Source of the DNA: a virus
Strand: one strand, 5' to 3'
IMG/VR virus record: IMGVR_UViG_3300031227_004974
Span: 1 to 37,245 of that record
Length of the DNA stretch: 37,245 nt
Both the position numbers and the translations under genes were made by a program. Position 1 is the first letter of the stretch, and each line of letters starts with the position of its first letter. The notes below the pieces were generated by a model that searched no databases, was not told the origin of the DNA, and saw nothing but the letters and a program-made list of their open reading frames with translations. Shown in pieces: positions 4,141-33,245 of the stretch.

Positions 4141-5241
4141 ATGACAAGCTCAGAACAAAAACAGCACGTTGATATACACAGGAAATTAAAACTCAGGCGT
4201 GACTTGATCGAGCGAGCCGGCCACCTCCGGGGCGCTGTCTACGTTCCCTTTATTGGTGAGGGAGATATAGCGGTAGAGCTATACACCGGAAAAAAAATCT
4301 TCGGCGCGGACATAAACCAGGACATGGTCGACAAGGCACAATCCCGGCTACCAGATGCTACGATCATCAAAGCCGACTGCGACCTATTCCCGTTTAATAA
4401 GAAGACAGCCACCTTCGCGGTCGCTGACCTCGACGCCTATAGCTACCCTTACGATTCCTTCCGAGCGTTCTGGAAGGGGGCTAGAATCGGCTCTCATTGC
4501 GCGGTTATCTTCACCGATGGCCAAAAACAGGCGATCAACCGGACTGGGCACTACAGAAGCCCGGACGGAGCTAAACACCACCTCACCAAATCGGCCGAAC
4601 GGCGAGCCGTCTATCACTTCTATTTTAACAGGACGTTGGTCCCCTGGTTTACTGAATATATCAAACCCTATAAGATACTTTACATAACGAAAAACAACAG
4701 GGGCCCGAATCAGCTGTACTGGGGAGCTGTCATATCGAAGACCGGGAAACCTGCCCCCAATAACAAAACAGCCGCCCCGGGTAACGCGCCGGGACCAGCT
4801 GCTAACACCGAAGCCCCCGACGCTATCAAACCTTACAAATTCGACGACATTAAAAAGGCTGAATACCTCGAGCATATCGCCAGTGGCCACACCCGAGGAC
4901 ACGCCGCGACGTTGGTCGGCATCAGCCGGGCGACAGTATGTGACCATGCGAAAGCAGACAAGGATTTTGCCGAGGCCATATCCTGCGCCGAGGGTGACGC
5001 CACCGGCAAGGTACAAAACGCTCTCCATGAAGCGGCCACCTCTGGCAATGTGACGGCCATCCAGGTATGGCTCTATAACCGGGATCCGAAACGATGGTCG
5101 GACAAACGGAATATACAACTGGCCGGCGAAGGCGGCGGCCCGATAAAGGTGGAACATGACGCCAGAGGACAGCTGCTTGCTGAGCTCGCTCGCCACGCTG
5201 CCAGAGTCGGAGCGGGAGAAGGTACTGGCCCGGCTGAGTGA
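4141..5241 (+). CDS. Methyltransferase-like/terminase small subunit fusion
   Basis: 366 residues in two parts. Residues about 1-200 look like a class I SAM-dependent methyltransferase: glycine loop VYVPFIGEGDIAVEL, acidic FGADINQD at the end of strand 2, and ADLDAYSYPY in the catalytic-loop position. A Pro/Ala/Asn-rich linker (about 200-228) follows. Residues about 230-366 match small terminase subunits: an HTH (HIASGHTRGHAATLVGISRA), KVQNALHEAA, and the characteristic WLYNRDPKRWSD. TerS recognises phage DNA and hands it to TerL. The gene overlaps the TerL start by 86 bases. The two halves are in one open frame with no internal stop. The TerS part is confident; activity of the methyltransferase part is uncertain. 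Confidence 0.8.
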   Translation: MTSSEQKQHVDIHRKLKLRRDLIERAGHLRGAVYVPFIGEGDIAVELYTGKKIFGADINQDMVDKAQSRLPDATIIKADCDLFPFNKKTATFAVADLDAYSYPYDSFRAFWKGARIGSHCAVIFTDGQKQAINRTGHYRSPDGAKHHLTKSAERRAVYHFYFNRTLVPWFTEYIKPYKILYITKNNRGPNQLYWGAVISKTGKPAPNNKTAAPGNAPGPAANTEAPDAIKPYKFDDIKKAEYLEHIASGHTRGHAATLVGISRATVCDHAKADKDFAEAISCAEGDATGKVQNALHEAATSGNVTAIQVWLYNRDPKRWSDKRNIQLAGEGGGPIKVEHDARGQLLAELARHAARVGAGEGTGPAE

Positions 5242-7246
5242 CGAGGTACTAGAGGAGCTTCTATATGACTGGCCATACCGGGCCCGGGACAAGCAGCTCC
5301 CGCCCCCCTGGGACTGGTATATCTGGCTAACGCTTTGCGGCCGGGGAGGCGGTAAGACTCGCACCGGCGCCGAATTGGTTAGCTCATGGGCAAAGGCAGG
5401 GTTTAGCCCGATCGCCTTGGTAGGCAAAACCAAGGCAGATGTCCGGGACACCATGATCGAGGTGGGCGAGTCGGCAATCCTTAACATCGGCAACCCTATA
5501 TTCCGGCCAGCTTATGAGCCATCTAAGAGGCGGCTGATCTGGCCGAATGGGGTGTTGGGTATAATCTACTCAGGAGACGAGCCAGATCAGCTCAGAGGCC
5601 CACAGCATGCCAAGGCATGGGTAGACGAGCTGGCCAAATTCAAATACCCGGAAGAGACCTGGAGCAACCTCATGCTTGGCCTCAGGATAGGCGAGAAACC
5701 CCAGGCCATTGTCACCACCACGCCGAGGCCGATTAAGGCCATCAAGGAGCTGGTGGCAGACGAGCGAACCGAGGATAATCCGGGCGGCAGGGTGGCGGTC
5801 ACCCGGGGACACACCTTAGAGAATAAAGCGAACCTGGCCCCCGACTTCTTGGGCTTTATCATCAAGAAATATCAGGGAACTAGGCTCGGCCAGCAAGAGC
5901 TTGAAGGTAAGATACTCGACGATAACCCTAACGCCCTTTGGAATAGGGCAGCGATCGAGAAACTCAGACTCACAAAACACCCGGAGCTGAAACGAATAGT
6001 CGTTGGGATAGATCCCGAGGCTACCGACACCGATACCAGCGCCGAAACTGGAATCATCGTCGCCGGCATGGCGGTGATCGACGGCCTGGAGCATGGCTAT
6101 ATTCTGGACGATCTAACTATCCGGGGAAGCCCTGGCGCCTGGGCCAAAGCCGCTATAACTGGCTACTATAAACACAAGGCCGACCGGATTATCGGAGAGG
6201 TCAATAACGGCGGCGATATGGTGGGCTTTACTATACGGACGGTCGACTCCAAGGTACCGTTTAAGGCAGTCCACGCTAGTCGAGGTAAGCAGACCCGGGC
6301 CGAGCCAGTGTCCGCCCTCTATGAGCAAGACCGAATACACCACGTCGGAACCTTCCCGGATCTGGAAGACCAGCTCTGTTTGACTGAGGGAACACTAGTA
6401 GCAACAGCAAATGGTGGAAAGCCTATAGAGACGCTGAAGGTTGGTGAGTTGGTTTGGACTCGCCGTGGGCTCAGACCAGTAGAAGGGTTAAGGTGTAATG
6501 GTTTTAAGGGCACCTTGCTATTGGGTTCCCGTTTAGGGTATAATATAAGGGCAACTGGCAATCACCCGTTCGCCAATCAGTGTGGAGATTGGATTGAAGC
6601 CAGTGAGTTAAGATTAGGAGATAAGGTATTATGCCTATCCCGATTAAACGCCCTTATGTTGAATTCGAGGGAATCAATTATTTCTTGGGGAATAGAGGCT
6701 ACTGGGAAGCAAGCCGTTCTCGCGGTCGGGGATTATTGCATAGAGCAGTGTGGGAATCGGCTAATGGGTCTATCGCAGGAGGTTGGGAAATACATCACAA
6801 GGATGGTGACCGAAGTAATAACCAGCTTTCAAACCTTGAACTTGTTACCAGAGAGATGCATTGTCAGTTCCACCCTCGCCAAGGCATTGCCAACCTCACC
6901 TTCGAGCAACGCAGTGAGCAGATGCGAGAGAATTGGAAGAAGCGCAATGGAGTTGAGATGGCCTGTCTTGAATGTGAGACAGTCTTTATTAGACGCTCAA
7001 CACACGGTAATTTCTGCTCCCGTAAATGTTATAAGCGATACCATCGTAAGCATCCAAAAAGCTGACCCAATTAGAGTCTGGGATTTACAGGTAGCCGCCG
7101 AGCATGAATATTTTGCGGGCGGCTTTTTGGTGCATAACTGCGAATGGGTGCCTGGCGATACTTCACCGGACAGGCTCGATGCCCTCGTCTGGGCGATAAC
7201 AGAGCTCATGCTGGAGGATCAGGGATTAGACTTTATGGTAGGGTGA
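5156..7246 (+). CDS. terL: Terminase large subunit with intein
   Basis: 696 residues before splicing, about 442 after. The N-terminal ATPase shows Walker A CGRGGGKT (residues 61-68), Walker B AWVDE (154-158) and coupling motif TTTPRP (187-192). The RNase H-like nuclease shows Asp286 (VGIDPEATD), Glu348 (GEVNNGGD) and, after the intein, SPDRLDALVWA with the third acidic residue. An intein (residues 408-661) interrupts the protein just before this last motif, between DLEDQL and CEWVPGD. TerL cuts concatemeric DNA and drives it into the prohead through the portal. The start overlaps the TerS gene in another frame. Splicing should be essential, because without it the third nuclease Asp is displaced by 254 residues. 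Confidence 0.92.
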   Translation: MTPEDSCLLSSLATLPESEREKVLARLSDEVLEELLYDWPYRARDKQLPPPWDWYIWLTLCGRGGGKTRTGAELVSSWAKAGFSPIALVGKTKADVRDTMIEVGESAILNIGNPIFRPAYEPSKRRLIWPNGVLGIIYSGDEPDQLRGPQHAKAWVDELAKFKYPEETWSNLMLGLRIGEKPQAIVTTTPRPIKAIKELVADERTEDNPGGRVAVTRGHTLENKANLAPDFLGFIIKKYQGTRLGQQELEGKILDDNPNALWNRAAIEKLRLTKHPELKRIVVGIDPEATDTDTSAETGIIVAGMAVIDGLEHGYILDDLTIRGSPGAWAKAAITGYYKHKADRIIGEVNNGGDMVGFTIRTVDSKVPFKAVHASRGKQTRAEPVSALYEQDRIHHVGTFPDLEDQLCLTEGTLVATANGGKPIETLKVGELVWTRRGLRPVEGLRCNGFKGTLLLGSRLGYNIRATGNHPFANQCGDWIEASELRLGDKVLCLSRLNALMLNSRESIISWGIEATGKQAVLAVGDYCIEQCGNRLMGLSQEVGKYITRMVTEVITSFQTLNLLPERCIVSSTLAKALPTSPSSNAVSRCERIGRSAMELRWPVLNVRQSLLDAQHTVISAPVNVISDTIVSIQKADPIRVWDLQVAAEHEYFAGGFLVHNCEWVPGDTSPDRLDALVWAITELMLEDQGLDFMVG
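6377..7138 (+). mobile_element. Intein in the large terminase
   Basis: Splicing block A starts at Cys408 (CLTEGTLVATANGGKPIETL). Block B contains TGNHPF with the conserved Thr467/His470. Block F is VWDLQVAAEHEYFAGG, and the C-terminal junction is LVHN followed by Cys662. Nucleophile Cys1, His-Asn and Cys+1 are all intact, so protein splicing is expected. The stretch between the Hint halves (about residues 492-637), where in-frame homing endonucleases usually sit, shows no recognisable domain in the intein frame. It is occupied by an HNH gene in another frame (6631-7065). Confidence 0.9.
6631..7065 (+). CDS. HNH homing endonuclease nested out of frame in intein
   Basis: 144 residues encoded in the -1 frame relative to the intein. 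It has its own ATG, an upstream AGGAG (6616-6620) and an in-frame TAA just before (6622-6624), so it is not an extension of the intein frame. It matches HNH_3-type endonucleases: LHRAVWE (His37), WEIHHKDGDRSNN (His55, His56) and LSNLELVTREMH (Asn68). A C-terminal treble-clef-like zinc motif follows (Cys112, Cys115, Cys129, Cys133). It fills the site between Hint blocks B and F where an endonuclease is normally fused. Expected job: cut intein-less terminase alleles and spread the element. Both frames stay open for about 145 codons. Confidence 0.88.
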   Translation: MPIPIKRPYVEFEGINYFLGNRGYWEASRSRGRGLLHRAVWESANGSIAGGWEIHHKDGDRSNNQLSNLELVTREMHCQFHPRQGIANLTFEQRSEQMRENWKKRNGVEMACLECETVFIRRSTHGNFCSRKCYKRYHRKHPKS

Positions 7247-22530: not shown

Positions 22531-24495
22531 ATGGCTTTTGCCGATGTAATAAGAGAGGTATCCAGCCCATCAACTTACCCCTCTGGAGTAGGTGGAGACG
22601 CTACCAAAATCTGGCTTTGCGACGGTGTAGCTGTCAAAATCTATGAGCTGGATACCAGCGACTTCTCTGCTGTAAGGGATGCAGCCAGTCCGTCAACTGC
22701 CCCCCGTGGAGTAGGTGGGAATGCTGATACCATCTGGCACTGTGACCAGAACACTGACAAAATCTATGAGCTGGATACCAGCGACTTCTCTAATCTAAGG
22801 GACGCAGCCAGTCCATCAGTTTACCCCTCTGGAGTAGGTGGCGATGCTAATACTATCTGGCATTGCGACTATGGCGACAAAATCTACGAGTTGGATGCAT
22901 CTGACTTCAGTAACCTAAGGGAAGTAGCCAGTCTGTCAACTGCCCCCTATGGAATAGGTGGCGATGCTAATACTATCTGGCATTGCGACTATAACACTGA
23001 CAAAATCTATGAGCTGGATACCAGCAACTTCTCTAATCTAAGGGAAGCAGCCAGCCCGTCAACTGCCCCCTATGGAATAGGCGGTGATGCTGATACTATC
23101 TGGCATTGCGACGGTAACACTGACAAAATCTATGAGCTGGATGCGGCACTAGTAGTAGCCCCCACAGTCACCACTCAGGCGGTCACGGATATAGACACTA
23201 CCACAGCCACGAGAAACGGCACTATCACCGATACAGGCGGGGAGAACTGCTCCAAGCGTGGTGCCTGCTGGAATACGGGAGGCAGCCCCACAGTAGCAGA
23301 CAGCAAATCAGAAGAAACGGACTCATTCGGGACTGGTGCTTTCACCGGGGCTATGACGGGGCTAACCGCCAGTACCCACTACTACGTCAAGGCTTATGCC
23401 TACAATACGGCAGGATACGGCTATGGCGGGCAGGTTGAATTTGATACCGAAGCAGCAGTGGTAACTTATACCAAGACCGTCAACATGGACGCCTTGCTCA
23501 GAGCCCAAGACACCGAGACGGTCGCACTTGACGCCAGGTTGAAGGCCATAGAAAAACCTGTAGTCACCCTGGATGCGATACTCAAAGCCTTGGATAGCCG
23601 TACGGTCAGCCTGGACACGCTGCTGAGGGCTTTGGGGCTTGATAAGACCGTCGCCCTGGACGCTCTCCTGAAAGCCCTTGACGCTGAAACCGTGAGCATT
23701 GATGCCCTGGTTAAGGCACTGGGCATACCCAAAACGGTAGCCCTGGATATTATCCTCGGCATTGGCGGGAAGGTAGAAGTTGACCTGGACGTGCTATTGG
23801 CCGGGGCGGCGACGGCTACGGTTGACATAGATGCCCTACTACAGGCGCTGGGGCTGACCAAGACGGTCGCGATCGACACACTGATCGCCCTGGTAAAGCT
23901 GACAGAAACCGTCGACGTGGATGCCCTCTTGAAAGCGTCTGACGACAAGACGGTTGACATAGACGTCTGGTTGAAGTCCCTGGCATTGATTGAAACGATA
24001 GACCTTGATGCCTTGCTGAAGGAAGTCGGGCTGACCAAAACCGTGGCGATAGACGCCATCATCAAGGCGATAGACACTCAGACGGTGGACCTGGATGCTT
24101 TCTTGAAGGGGTTAGGTATCACCCAGACGGTAGCGCTAGACGCAATCCTGGGGAAAGGCGGGTTGATAACAATCGACCTGGATACCCTGCTGGCCGGTCA
24201 AGTTGTCCTGACGATTGCGATTGATGTTATTCTGGCGCTCTATCCCTCGGCGGCTTTCCGGTTTATCATAGAGGTGCGAGATACTTCAGGCAATCTCATA
24301 TCTATATTAGCAAACGCCAGTAGTATCAATTATACCCAGGTTGTCAATCGTGGGGAAACCCTGGACTTCACCATACCCGGGGATGACGCAATGAAGTCAG
24401 CATTGACCTGGGCAAATGAGGTTTGGCTTCGCGACTACAGGACCGGGACGGTCGTGCATAAGTTCAAGATTGGGACAAGGATGGATAGGCGGTAA
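22531..24495 (+). CDS. Repeat-rich tail protein ending in Gp37-like N-terminal segment
   Basis: 654 residues in four regions. Residues 12-206: five near-identical repeats of about 41 residues (core GVGGDANTIWHCD, then KIYELDTSDFSNLR), like beta-propeller blades. Residues 209-312: an FN3-like domain (TTATRNGTITDTGGENCSKR, YYVKAYAYNTAGYGYG). Residues 314-570: 14-15-residue repeats of the form KTVALDALLKALG. Residues 575-654: the start of a siphoviral Gp37-like tail protein (FRFIIEVRDTSGNLISILAN, EVWLRDYRTGTVVHKFKIG). The stop at 24493 is the only break in a frame that runs on into 24508-25992, so the two are probably halves of one tail-tip protein. Likely role: tail tip and receptor contact. 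Confidence 0.8.
   Translation: MAFADVIREVSSPSTYPSGVGGDATKIWLCDGVAVKIYELDTSDFSAVRDAASPSTAPRGVGGNADTIWHCDQNTDKIYELDTSDFSNLRDAASPSVYPSGVGGDANTIWHCDYGDKIYELDASDFSNLREVASLSTAPYGIGGDANTIWHCDYNTDKIYELDTSNFSNLREAASPSTAPYGIGGDADTIWHCDGNTDKIYELDAALVVAPTVTTQAVTDIDTTTATRNGTITDTGGENCSKRGACWNTGGSPTVADSKSEETDSFGTGAFTGAMTGLTASTHYYVKAYAYNTAGYGYGGQVEFDTEAAVVTYTKTVNMDALLRAQDTETVALDARLKAIEKPVVTLDAILKALDSRTVSLDTLLRALGLDKTVALDALLKALDAETVSIDALVKALGIPKTVALDIILGIGGKVEVDLDVLLAGAATATVDIDALLQALGLTKTVAIDTLIALVKLTETVDVDALLKASDDKTVDIDVWLKSLALIETIDLDALLKEVGLTKTVAIDAIIKAIDTQTVDLDAFLKGLGITQTVALDAILGKGGLITIDLDTLLAGQVVLTIAIDVILALYPSAAFRFIIEVRDTSGNLISILANASSINYTQVVNRGETLDFTIPGDDAMKSALTWANEVWLRDYRTGTVVHKFKIGTRMDRR
22564..23150 (+). 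repeat. Five tandem ~41-codon propeller-like repeats
   Basis: Units of roughly 120-126 bases share long identical stretches at DNA level, including CAAAATCTATGAGCTGGAT and ATCTGGCA(C/T)TG. High DNA identity points to recent duplication and allows copy-number change by recombination. Confidence 0.85.
23470..24240 (+). repeat. Array of 14-15-residue repeats (TVxLDALLKAL)
   Basis: About 17-18 degenerate protein repeats of the type TVALDALLKALG/D, sometimes broken by glycine-rich units (GIGGKVEVDLDVLLAG). DNA identity between units is low, so the array is old and kept at the protein level. Confidence 0.8.
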
Positions 24496-31109: not shown

Positions 31110-31139
31110 TAATATACTAATAGGTAATATACTAATAGG
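31110..31139. repeat. Tandem duplication TAATATACTAATAGG x2
   Basis: Exact 15-bp direct repeat between the annealing protein stop and the ribosome site (AGGGAGG) of the next gene. It duplicates part of the leader; looks like a slippage event. Confidence 0.85.
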
Positions 31140-31155
31140 GAGGCAGCTAATCATC

Positions 31156-31398
31156 ATGGAAGTAGAAGTCATCATCGGAAACCTGTCAACCAAAACCAAG
31201 ATGGTCGAAGTTAAAGACGAGCAGCCCCGGCAGGTTATCACTATCCAGATCGAGACCGAAATGAACCCGAGGGAACTTGCCCATATCCTGGACTATCAAC
31301 GAGCCGGCCGACCGCTGTTCATGTCCATTTCTTCACCCCAGGCCTCGCTTGATGATGCCCTAGGCGTGGACAAGGAAACAGCCGACGCAGCAGCTTAA
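31156..31398 (+). CDS. Hypothetical protein, 80 aa
   Basis: Good AGGGAGG ribosome site. Beta strands at the start (EVEVIIGNLSTKTKMVEVK, QVITIQIETE), then a helix (PRELAHILDYQRAGRPLFMS) and an acidic Ala-rich tail. Not recognised; in the recombination/replication region. Confidence 0.6.
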   Translation: MEVEVIIGNLSTKTKMVEVKDEQPRQVITIQIETEMNPRELAHILDYQRAGRPLFMSISSPQASLDDALGVDKETADAAA

Positions 31399-31586: not shown

Positions 31587-31841
31587 ATGCCAAACAAGAT
31601 AAGCTCTCACCAATTATTTGGGAAGCCGTTTTCTCGATTCCTCGACAGCCAGGCCAAAACTACACAAGGCCATACGGTCGCTTACTGCCCCATAGCCCCA
31701 GGCGATCCGGCGCCGGTATGTTACCCGTCCTGCAGTTTCTGGAGGGACTGGTGCCAGCACAGTGAGGCCGTCCGTATTATCAGGAACATGAGCAGGGAAG
31801 AGAGAGCACAAAGCCCGGTAGGATATTCGGACGTAGACTGA
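31587..31841 (+). CDS. Cys-rich small protein, 84 aa
   Basis: ATG at 31587 follows GGAGGT. Middle region has several Cys (AYCPIAPGDPAPVCYPSCSF, then WCQHSEAV), possibly a metal site. The end is basic and overlaps the O-like gene by one base (TGATG). Not recognised. It follows a structured 188-base leader, which may control it. Confidence 0.6.
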   Translation: MPNKISSHQLFGKPFSRFLDSQAKTTQGHTVAYCPIAPGDPAPVCYPSCSFWRDWCQHSEAVRIIRNMSREERAQSPVGYSDVD

Positions 31842-32656
31842 TGGCCAAACCCCAGCTGGAGAACGGCCACACCCAAATCGCCAACGAGTTGCTGGAGCAG
31901 CTTGCTAAGTTATACCTGCCACCTAACCAGTGGCAGGTGCTTCTTTTTATCATCCGGAAGACCTACGGATTCAGGAAAAAGGTTGACTATATCGCCAGCC
32001 CTCAGATAATAGCCGGCACCGGCCTGGGCAAGCAAGTGATATCCCGGGCGCTGATAAAACTGCAGGATAGGAATATCATCATCCGGCAGAAAAAGAACAT
32101 CGGAATACAAAAAGACTGGGAAAGGTGGAAGTCAGCAGAACTGCTAACTATAGGCACAAAGTCAGCAGAACAGCTTACTTCTGCAAAAGTAAGCAGAACA
32201 GCTAATCAAAGTAAGCTGAACAGCTTACCGGAGTCAGCTGAACAGCTTACAAAAGTAAGCAGCCCAGACGACACACAAAAGAAAGAAACTATACAAAAGA
32301 AACTATACAAAAGAAAGGGGCAGGAAAAGATGTTCCTTATCTTTTGGGAAGCATACCCCAAGAAGGCATCCAAGGGGCAAGCAGAAAAAGCCTTCTACAG
32401 TATTGCCCCGGATGATAAACTACTGGAGCTCATGCTGGAGTCAATCAAATTGGCCAAGCAATCAGAAGCATGGCTGAAAGAAGGCGGTAGATATATCAAG
32501 AACCCGGCCACCTGGCTAAACGCCAAGTGCTGGGAAGATGAAATACAGAAAGGAGGTGACCATGGAGAAGCTAGGGGATATTCTAAAGGAAGCACAAGGC
32601 GAATCCCCCAAGCAGGGGAATATACCGACCCCCGGGCGATTCGACATTCGGAGTGA
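31841..32656 (+). CDS. Replication initiator, lambda O-like
   Basis: 271 residues. The N-terminal winged helix matches phage replication protein O (NGHTQIANELLEQLAKLYLP, LLFIIRKTYGFRKKVDYIAS, VISRALIKLQDRNIIIRQ). The middle is repetitive because it encodes the origin iterons (protein echo KSAEQLT). The C-terminal domain (FLIFWEAYPKKASKGQAEKA, ARYI-like RYIKNPATWLNAKCWED) is the usual partner-binding part in O/DnaD-like phage initiators. It binds the iterons in its own gene and recruits the helicase loader encoded next, by analogy with lambda. It overlaps the loader gene by 95 bases. Confidence 0.85.
   Translation: MAKPQLENGHTQIANELLEQLAKLYLPPNQWQVLLFIIRKTYGFRKKVDYIASPQIIAGTGLGKQVISRALIKLQDRNIIIRQKKNIGIQKDWERWKSAELLTIGTKSAEQLTSAKVSRTANQSKLNSLPESAEQLTKVSSPDDTQKKETIQKKLYKRKGQEKMFLIFWEAYPKKASKGQAEKAFYSIAPDDKLLELMLESIKLAKQSEAWLKEGGRYIKNPATWLNAKCWEDEIQKGGDHGEARGYSKGSTRRIPQAGEYTDPRAIRHSE
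32131..32312. other. Replication origin: iterons plus AT-rich element
   Basis: Five 18-bp iterons at 32131, 32161, 32189, 32211 and 32233 (best copy GTAAGCTGAACAGCTTAC, itself an 8-2-8 inverted repeat), and a partial sixth at 32255. They are spaced 30, 28, 22 and 22 bases. Directly after comes a purine-rich, AT-rich stretch with a tandem 14-bp repeat GAAACTATACAAAA (32285-32298, 32299-32312). Iterons in the initiator gene followed by an AT-rich unwinding element is the lambda ori design. Confidence 0.85.
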
Positions 32657-33245
32657 CCAGGAGATAACTGACCCGGCGGAATACTGGAGAAGGAGTTTGA
32701 GAATCACCTGTATGGACAACACCTTCGAGAACTTCAAGCCCCGGCCCGGGACCGAGTTATCATTGCGGGCGTTTAAGGCGCTGGCCGATGGCACAACTGA
32801 CAAGCCGTTTCTGTTCTGCTATGGTACCACCGGATGCGGTAAGACCCACCTCATTGAGGCCACCATCATCCGCTGGCTGGAGCGCGGTATCATCTGCCGC
32901 TACTATACGGTCGGCGAGTTCCTGGCTCTGTTAAAGGCAGCCATGAATGATAACGACCGGGCAGACGAAGCCGAGCTATTCGGCCGATTCTGCAATGCGC
33001 CATATCTGGTACTTGATGACCTAGGCCTCGAGTATGGTACAAAGTGGGAGTATAGCCGGCTCGAGGAATTGATACGGCGCCGGGATGCCGAGAGGCTGGT
33101 CACCATCATGGCAACCAACAGGGATATCCAGCAGCTACAAAAGGAAGGAGATGTGCCGCGGTTACTCAGTAGGTTCTCGGACCCGGCCGTGTCGGAGCTG
33201 GTGGTGAACGGGGCCATCGACTACCGGCTGAGGGAGGAAGAATGA
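32562..33245 (+). CDS. Helicase loader, DnaC/IstB-like AAA+ ATPase
   Basis: 227 residues; ATG 32562 follows AAAGGAGGTGA. Walker A GTTGCGKT (88-95), Walker B YLVLDD (148-153), sensor-like MATN (183-186). N-terminal region carries TFENFKPRPGTELSLRAFKA, typical of DnaC-like loaders. It should deliver the host replicative helicase to the O-like initiator at the iterons. No phage helicase or polymerase is seen, so replication depends on the host. Overlaps the next gene (ATGA). Confidence 0.88.
   Translation: MEKLGDILKEAQGESPKQGNIPTPGRFDIRSDQEITDPAEYWRRSLRITCMDNTFENFKPRPGTELSLRAFKALADGTTDKPFLFCYGTTGCGKTHLIEATIIRWLERGIICRYYTVGEFLALLKAAMNDNDRADEAELFGRFCNAPYLVLDDLGLEYGTKWEYSRLEELIRRRDAERLVTIMATNRDIQQLQKEGDVPRLLSRFSDPAVSELVVNGAIDYRLREEE

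Follow-up and report, generated by a model that had tools for sequence, protein, structure and literature searches.

Where does an uncultured phage begin to replicate its DNA, and how does its initiator protein recognize that place? The DNA analysed here, a 37,245-base IMG/VR virus record (in the following referred to as the window), has its long frames on the + strand and carries, according to family scans, a siphovirus-like gene set with terminase, portal, major head, tape measure and distal tail genes. Our analysis locates the probable replication start and the initiator of this phage: a lambda-type origin of replication very probably lies inside the phage's own initiator gene. This design is already well known, but the letters of the binding site have been altered together in nearly every copy, and the melting segment next to the sites retains a short motif that is also found in lambda.

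The initiator protein

The gene at 31841..32656 (+ strand) codes for an O-type replication initiator of 271 amino acids, as judged from matches to Pfam Phage_rep_O and to PHROG 277/2365, which carries the label 'replication initiation O-like'. Residues 4-96 match Phage_rep_O (PF04492) at 1.5e-22 and 80.3 bits, against a cut-off of 28.7 and 123.4 bits for the control, lambda O, and the DNA-binding domain shares 35% identity with lambda O over 92 residues without gaps. Because of this family match and this identity, the protein is more than 'distantly O-like', the description chosen by the first-pass annotation; its DNA-binding domain clearly belongs to the O family, and unlikeness to lambda is confined to the C-terminal module and the iteron letters.

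The polypeptide consists of a winged-helix DNA-binding domain (residues ~10-95), a linker (~106-159) and a helical C-terminal module (~160-240). An AlphaFold2 model built with 23 relatives predicts helices at residues 12-22, 28-42, 53-60 and 64-76 and strands at 80-83 and 86-89; in this model the fold is a winged helix whose recognition helix is formed by residues 64-76. Confidence drops below a pLDDT of 50 at residues 106-108 and 111-159, and helices of the C-terminal module follow at 162-237. The iterons and the A-rich segment described below are encoded at residues ~97-159, so that most of the array falls within the low-confidence linker. Sequence searches returned no solved structure for either this initiator or lambda O. 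A Foldseek comparison with solved structures gave generic winged-helix matches only, none of them at an E value of 0.001 or below, and the matches obtained with VIA-align 2 were likewise generic winged helices, mostly covering residues 12-102 and hardly touching the C-terminal module.

The iteron array

Tandem dyad iterons are present inside the initiator gene, between the parts coding for the DNA-binding domain and the C-terminal module. Read on the + strand, these are iteron 1 (GTCAGCAGAACTGCTAAC, 32131..32148; 7/8 arm pairs, codon phase 2), iteron 2 (GTCAGCAGAACAGCTTAC, 32161..32178; 6/8, phase 2), iteron 3 (GTAAGCAGAACAGCTAAT, 32189..32206; 5/8, phase 0), iteron 4 (GTAAGCTGAACAGCTTAC, 32211..32228; 8/8, phase 1) and iteron 5 (GTCAGCTGAACAGCTTAC, 32233..32250; 7/8, phase 2), with starts that are 30, 28, 22 and 22 bp apart. 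The first-pass annotation had described five near-perfect inverted repeats; all five sites are real and most are near-perfect, iteron 3 with its 5/8 pairs being the weaker one. It overlooked a sixth, half-degenerate site (GTAAGCAGCCCAGACGAC, 32255..32272, + strand) located 22 bp after iteron 5, in which the left arm is intact and the right arm is mostly lost. This site lies flush against the A-rich segment and ends exactly where ACACAAAAGA starts, at 32273. Nine of the 10 intact half-sites of the window read GT[A/C]AG, with A (six), C (three) or T (one) at position 3, and the iteron letters are indeed different from those of lambda (GT[A/C]AGC here versus ATCCCTC).

Since the copies stand in codon phases 2, 2, 0, 1 and 2, it is the DNA and not the peptide that is kept. 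The constraint at the DNA level is also seen in 300 synonymous-codon shuffles of the initiator gene, in which the best repeat count was 3 (6 observed) and the largest number of dyads 5 (8 observed). No further copy of the iteron with up to four mismatches was found in the 37-kb window.

The A-rich segment

The sixth site is directly followed by an A-rich, strand-asymmetric segment (32273..32317, + strand) that, from its A+T content and stability, would serve as the DNA-unwinding element. Positions 32273-32316 are 77% A+T, the top strand having 30 A and four T. No other 40-bp stretch of the gene is less stable than that at 32277-32317, which is among the least stable 0.16% of the window; after merging of neighbours it ranks sixth, about five other places being less stable. 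An AT-rich stretch with a 14-bp tandem had been noted behind the iterons, and the tandem, AAAGAAACTATACA, proves to be perfect, with two copies at 32282-32309 and about 2.5 at 32282-32316.

Within the segment, the motif ACAAAAGA occurs three times, at 32275, 32293 and 32307; the lambda counterpart of the segment, for comparison, is ACACAAAAGACACTATTACAAAAGAAAAAAG. Among the linkers of 53 initiators, 25 contain ACAAAAGA, altogether in 46 copies and in all three codon phases, compared with 2.5-3.6 copies in shuffles. It is present in lambda, ES18, Sf101, HK97, a Yersinia phage and a Paraburkholderia phage, the iterons of which differ from one another except for those shared by lambda and ES18. 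In a replicate set of initiators from the phylum to which Bacillus belongs, ACAAAAGA is nearly absent (one copy versus 2.9 expected) and therefore not family-wide; TAAAGA is common in that set. A 15-bp deletion in the A-rich segment of lambda (ori96) was isolated as an origin mutation with which O still works in trans (PMC6022878), and O proteins also bind A/T-rich single strands (PMC7466680). We suggest that ACAAAAGA itself may be read as a signal, and the sharing of this motif offers a way to test whether unwinding elements of the lambda type hold information in their sequence and not only in their base composition. The origins of lambdoid coliphages were reportedly compared in a study dating from 1979, and the likeness of their A-rich segments may well be known already.

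Known origins of the same layout

The anatomy of the locus corresponds to that of lambda ori, as the first-pass annotation had proposed: the position in the initiator gene, the dyad iterons, the adjoining A-rich segment and the loader gene behind it all match. Both origins have hyphenated-dyad iterons in the initiator linker (starting at codons 97-131 of 271 in the window and at codons 116-138 of 299 in lambda), a strand-asymmetric A-rich segment with ACAAAAGA, and a loader gene next to it. The fourth iteron of lambda is also imperfect and placed beside the A-rich region, like the sixth site of the window. The window differs from lambda in its number of sites (five and a half site, versus four), in its unrelated C-terminal module and in its DnaC-like loader. 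ES18, whose origin is annotated as 'similar to lambda ori', as well as Sf101, HK97 and a Yersinia phage share the layout of the window and of lambda while using iteron letters other than those of the window; in HK97, Sf101 and ES18, the A-rich segment is nearly the same and the iterons vary by phage. Where annotated, the gene downstream is DnaB-like (HK97) or a primase/helicase (ES18), as opposed to a loader in the window.

The neighbouring loader gene and the proposed initiation process

A gene for a DnaC-like helicase loader (32562..33245, + strand; PHROG_50 'DnaC-like helicase loader', 5.8e-36) adjoins the initiator gene, which bears out the earlier assignment of a loader gene to this place. 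It overlaps the 3′ end of the initiator gene in another frame; judged from the sequence, its likely start is at 32562, with a Shine-Dalgarno-like AGGAGG at 32551, and the longest open frame begins at 32538.

Dimers of lambda O bind to the iterons and open the A+T-rich region of 40 bp beside them (PMC5043065). By analogy, a dimer of the O-type protein would grip each 18-bp iteron through its two winged-helix domains, and five or six such dimers would wrap the DNA and, under negative supercoiling, force apart the strands of the adjacent A-rich segment. Binding of the loader is the presumed role of the C-terminal module, which would then recruit this protein encoded next door, and the loader would place a DnaB-type helicase of the host on the opened strands; no replicative helicase gene was found among the frames of the window that were scanned. 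That the initiator and the iterons form a protein-DNA pair, as claimed earlier, is suggested by comparison. A GC-skew analysis, proposed by the first-pass annotation as a check, gave no turn near 32.2 kb; we read this as neither supporting nor opposing an origin, and it is also counted against the claim. As the record is possibly a fragment, there may be a second origin outside of it.

Relatives with arrays at the same place

The proposed comparison of iterons in relatives turned out favourably. A scan for distant DNA matches in a phage collection was negative, and a first scan of genome contigs gave no relative. Eight close relatives, all uncultured (L002, L009-L013, L015 and L016), have arrays of their own, each with at least three sites, in the corresponding part of the initiator gene. 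L015 and L016 were read from the reverse strand, and the L015 contig ends inside the linker. In seven of these relatives (L002, L016, L009-L013), the N-terminal half of the initiator is ~50-66% identical to that of the window, as judged by alignment or tblastn, and four to seven sites are present; the 14-bp tandem of the window recurs identically in L002 and L010. A counterpart of the sixth site, with an intact left arm and a degenerate right arm adjoining ACAAAAGA, is found in L009, L010, L011, L012 and L016; L013 is without the ACAAAAGA segment. L002 also has, at positions 191-211, a reverse-oriented near-copy of the iteron in the part coding for the DNA-binding domain, where the matching stretch of the window is not iteron-like.

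The same seven relatives differ from the window in their half-site (GTTAGC versus GT[A/C]AG), in possessing another C-terminal module, and in their loaders, which share less than 40% identity with that of the window where alignable over most of their length; several N-terminal relatives encode a related loader, with identities mostly of 28-39%. The N-terminal half of the window's initiator matches L002 and L016 at ~60%, while its C-terminal part matches L003-L007 and not L002 or L016. This mismatch between N- and C-terminal relatives would be accounted for if sequences had been exchanged around the A-rich segment, and the same pattern is seen between ES18 and lambda.

Could the sites serve another purpose? 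They might be operators: by binding to them, the initiator or another winged-helix protein would regulate how the replication operon is transcribed, and not the start of replication. The domain does resemble MarR/CRP-type regulators, the size of the palindromes would suit dimers of such proteins, and transcription activates lambda ori itself (PMC5043065). We nevertheless regard this function as improbable, given that the sites are located ~290 bp inside the gene, beside an unwinding-type segment and away from a promoter, that promoter-like sequences near the gene amount to no more than consensus matches, and that in the relatives, too, the array is retained and borders on the A-rich segment. 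Slightly less probable still is a role in the mRNA, where a folded structure would control how the loader is translated or how transcription proceeds through the gene: the stretch folds better as RNA than its shuffles do (z -4.4) and a separate terminator-like hairpin is present upstream at 31913-31939, but good folding is expected of palindromes arranged in a row, a counterpart of the upstream hairpin is missing from those relatives that were inspected, and among relatives the spacing and number of the sites vary while the half-site letters are constant. Finally, a repeated linker peptide in which the DNA symmetry would be incidental has next to nothing to recommend it, since, despite a (K)SAEQLT common to some copies and a linker of low structural confidence, the copies use all three codon phases and encode different peptides, as they do in L002, L009, L010, L012 and lambda, a phase distribution that has already largely refuted it.

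A possible joint change of iterons and recognition helix

The window departs from its closest relatives in the letters of its sites. The eight clade members use GTTAGC, and also GTTGAC, as half-site; position 3 of their intact half-sites is T in 71 cases, C in four and A in one, the odd ones stemming from overlapping or stray pseudo-sites. In a tree calculated without the recognition helix, the window is nested within this GTTAGC clade (support 97/82 and 99/97). Elsewhere on the tree, GT[A/C]AG is used by Bacillus-type prophages (L030, L035, L037, L040) and by L054. When 98 positions were scanned, residue 65, the second in the recognition helix, was the only one at which the window, the Bacillus type and L054 have a residue in common (Gln) that is missing from the eight clade members, where Ser, Thr or Ala is found instead. 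The prophages of Bacillus, Anoxybacillus and Geobacillus (L030/L034, L037, L038) and L040 share with the window GTAAGC/GTCAGC half-sites as well as a recognition helix that begins with Lys-Gln; they differ from it in having an A-rich segment without ACAAAAGA, and L030 differs further in its DNA-binding domain (~36% identical) and its DnaD-type C-terminus (Pfam DnaB_2).

These comparisons suggest that the iterons of the window and the recognition helix of its initiator changed specificity together. We tentatively consider a joint reading, with rather more doubt than confidence. In its first part, a switch of residue 65 from Ser/Thr/Ala to Gln would have been matched, in almost all half-sites, by a T-to-A/C change at position 3, including the half-degenerate sixth site, whose left arm has the T-to-A change seen in the other sites. 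In its second part, ACAAAAGA would act as a signal that is read, perhaps in single-stranded form, by the opening or loading step in both the window phage and lambda.

A single-residue rule, by which Lys-Gln at the helix start predicts GT[A/C]AG, was fixed before testing. Its out-of-sample check gave a mixed outcome. Two scans for new Lys-Gln cases returned known genes; genome searches with PF04492 then yielded ~60 further initiators, of which L119, L120 and L145 repeat earlier genes and are not new. L155, with a new Lys-Gln helix, fits the rule in six of its eight half-sites when read by eye, the script having chosen another register; the distant L151, also with a new Lys-Gln helix, breaks it (GTTCTT), and initiators with Gln65 but no Lys64 (L082, L083, L090) have no GT[A/C]AG. 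The rule is therefore limited, at most, to close helix contexts. L139, whose nearest panel member shares 30% identity with it, combines the helix K-S-V-I-S-R with the half-sites GTTTAC/GTTGAC, which suits the idea of a switch without having been strictly predicted by it.

Across the first 36 initiators, helix and iterons clearly co-vary at residues 61-72 (partial r 0.25, p 0.001 by permutation). The replicate set comprised 32 initiators, the iterons of which were detected less cleanly; here, residues 62-73 are weakly elevated (r 0.14, p 0.037) and other regions more so. Because of this weak replicate, a general co-variation between recognition helix and iteron is treated as suggestive. Tree-based independent pairs gave three in the same direction, none opposite and two without a difference (p 0.25), too few for a verdict. 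With few supporting cases, the proposed specificity switch in the lineage of the window is a good lead, not a code. The window and L016 or L002 would form a natural pair: between the two, a small difference in the initiator is matched by one in the origin, and with such a pair one can ask directly how a multi-site origin changes its specificity without dying.

Two observations made in these comparisons stand apart. Residues 17-31 (31889-31933) gave a second, unexplained correlation peak among the first 36 initiators that was not repeated in the replicate. In addition, L121, L142, L149, L152, L174 and similar initiators from the phylum of Bacillus have a helix resembling GVxKxDIKKEL and linker rows of AGTTAGTAAAACACT or AGTTGGTAAAATACC; these repeats, which are poorly framed by the dyad search, are a distinct iteron type.

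Other features of the window

Among the tail genes, a 654-aa frame (22531-24495) that is almost without a family match contains a tandem array at 22562-23144, with a unit of 123 bp in ~4.7 copies that are 79% alike. The 696-aa frame at 5156-7246 has terminase-like matches mainly in its first 450 residues, the remainder being nearly unmatched. A perfect 15-bp tandem (TAATATACTAATAGG, two copies) at 31110-31139, just 5′ of the frame at 31156, lies in one of the least stable stretches of the window and is possibly a promoter or operator region. Within the initiator gene, 5′ of the array, the hairpin at 31913-31939 consists of a 10-pair stem followed by CTTCTTTTTA, and its folding beats 198 of 200 shuffles.
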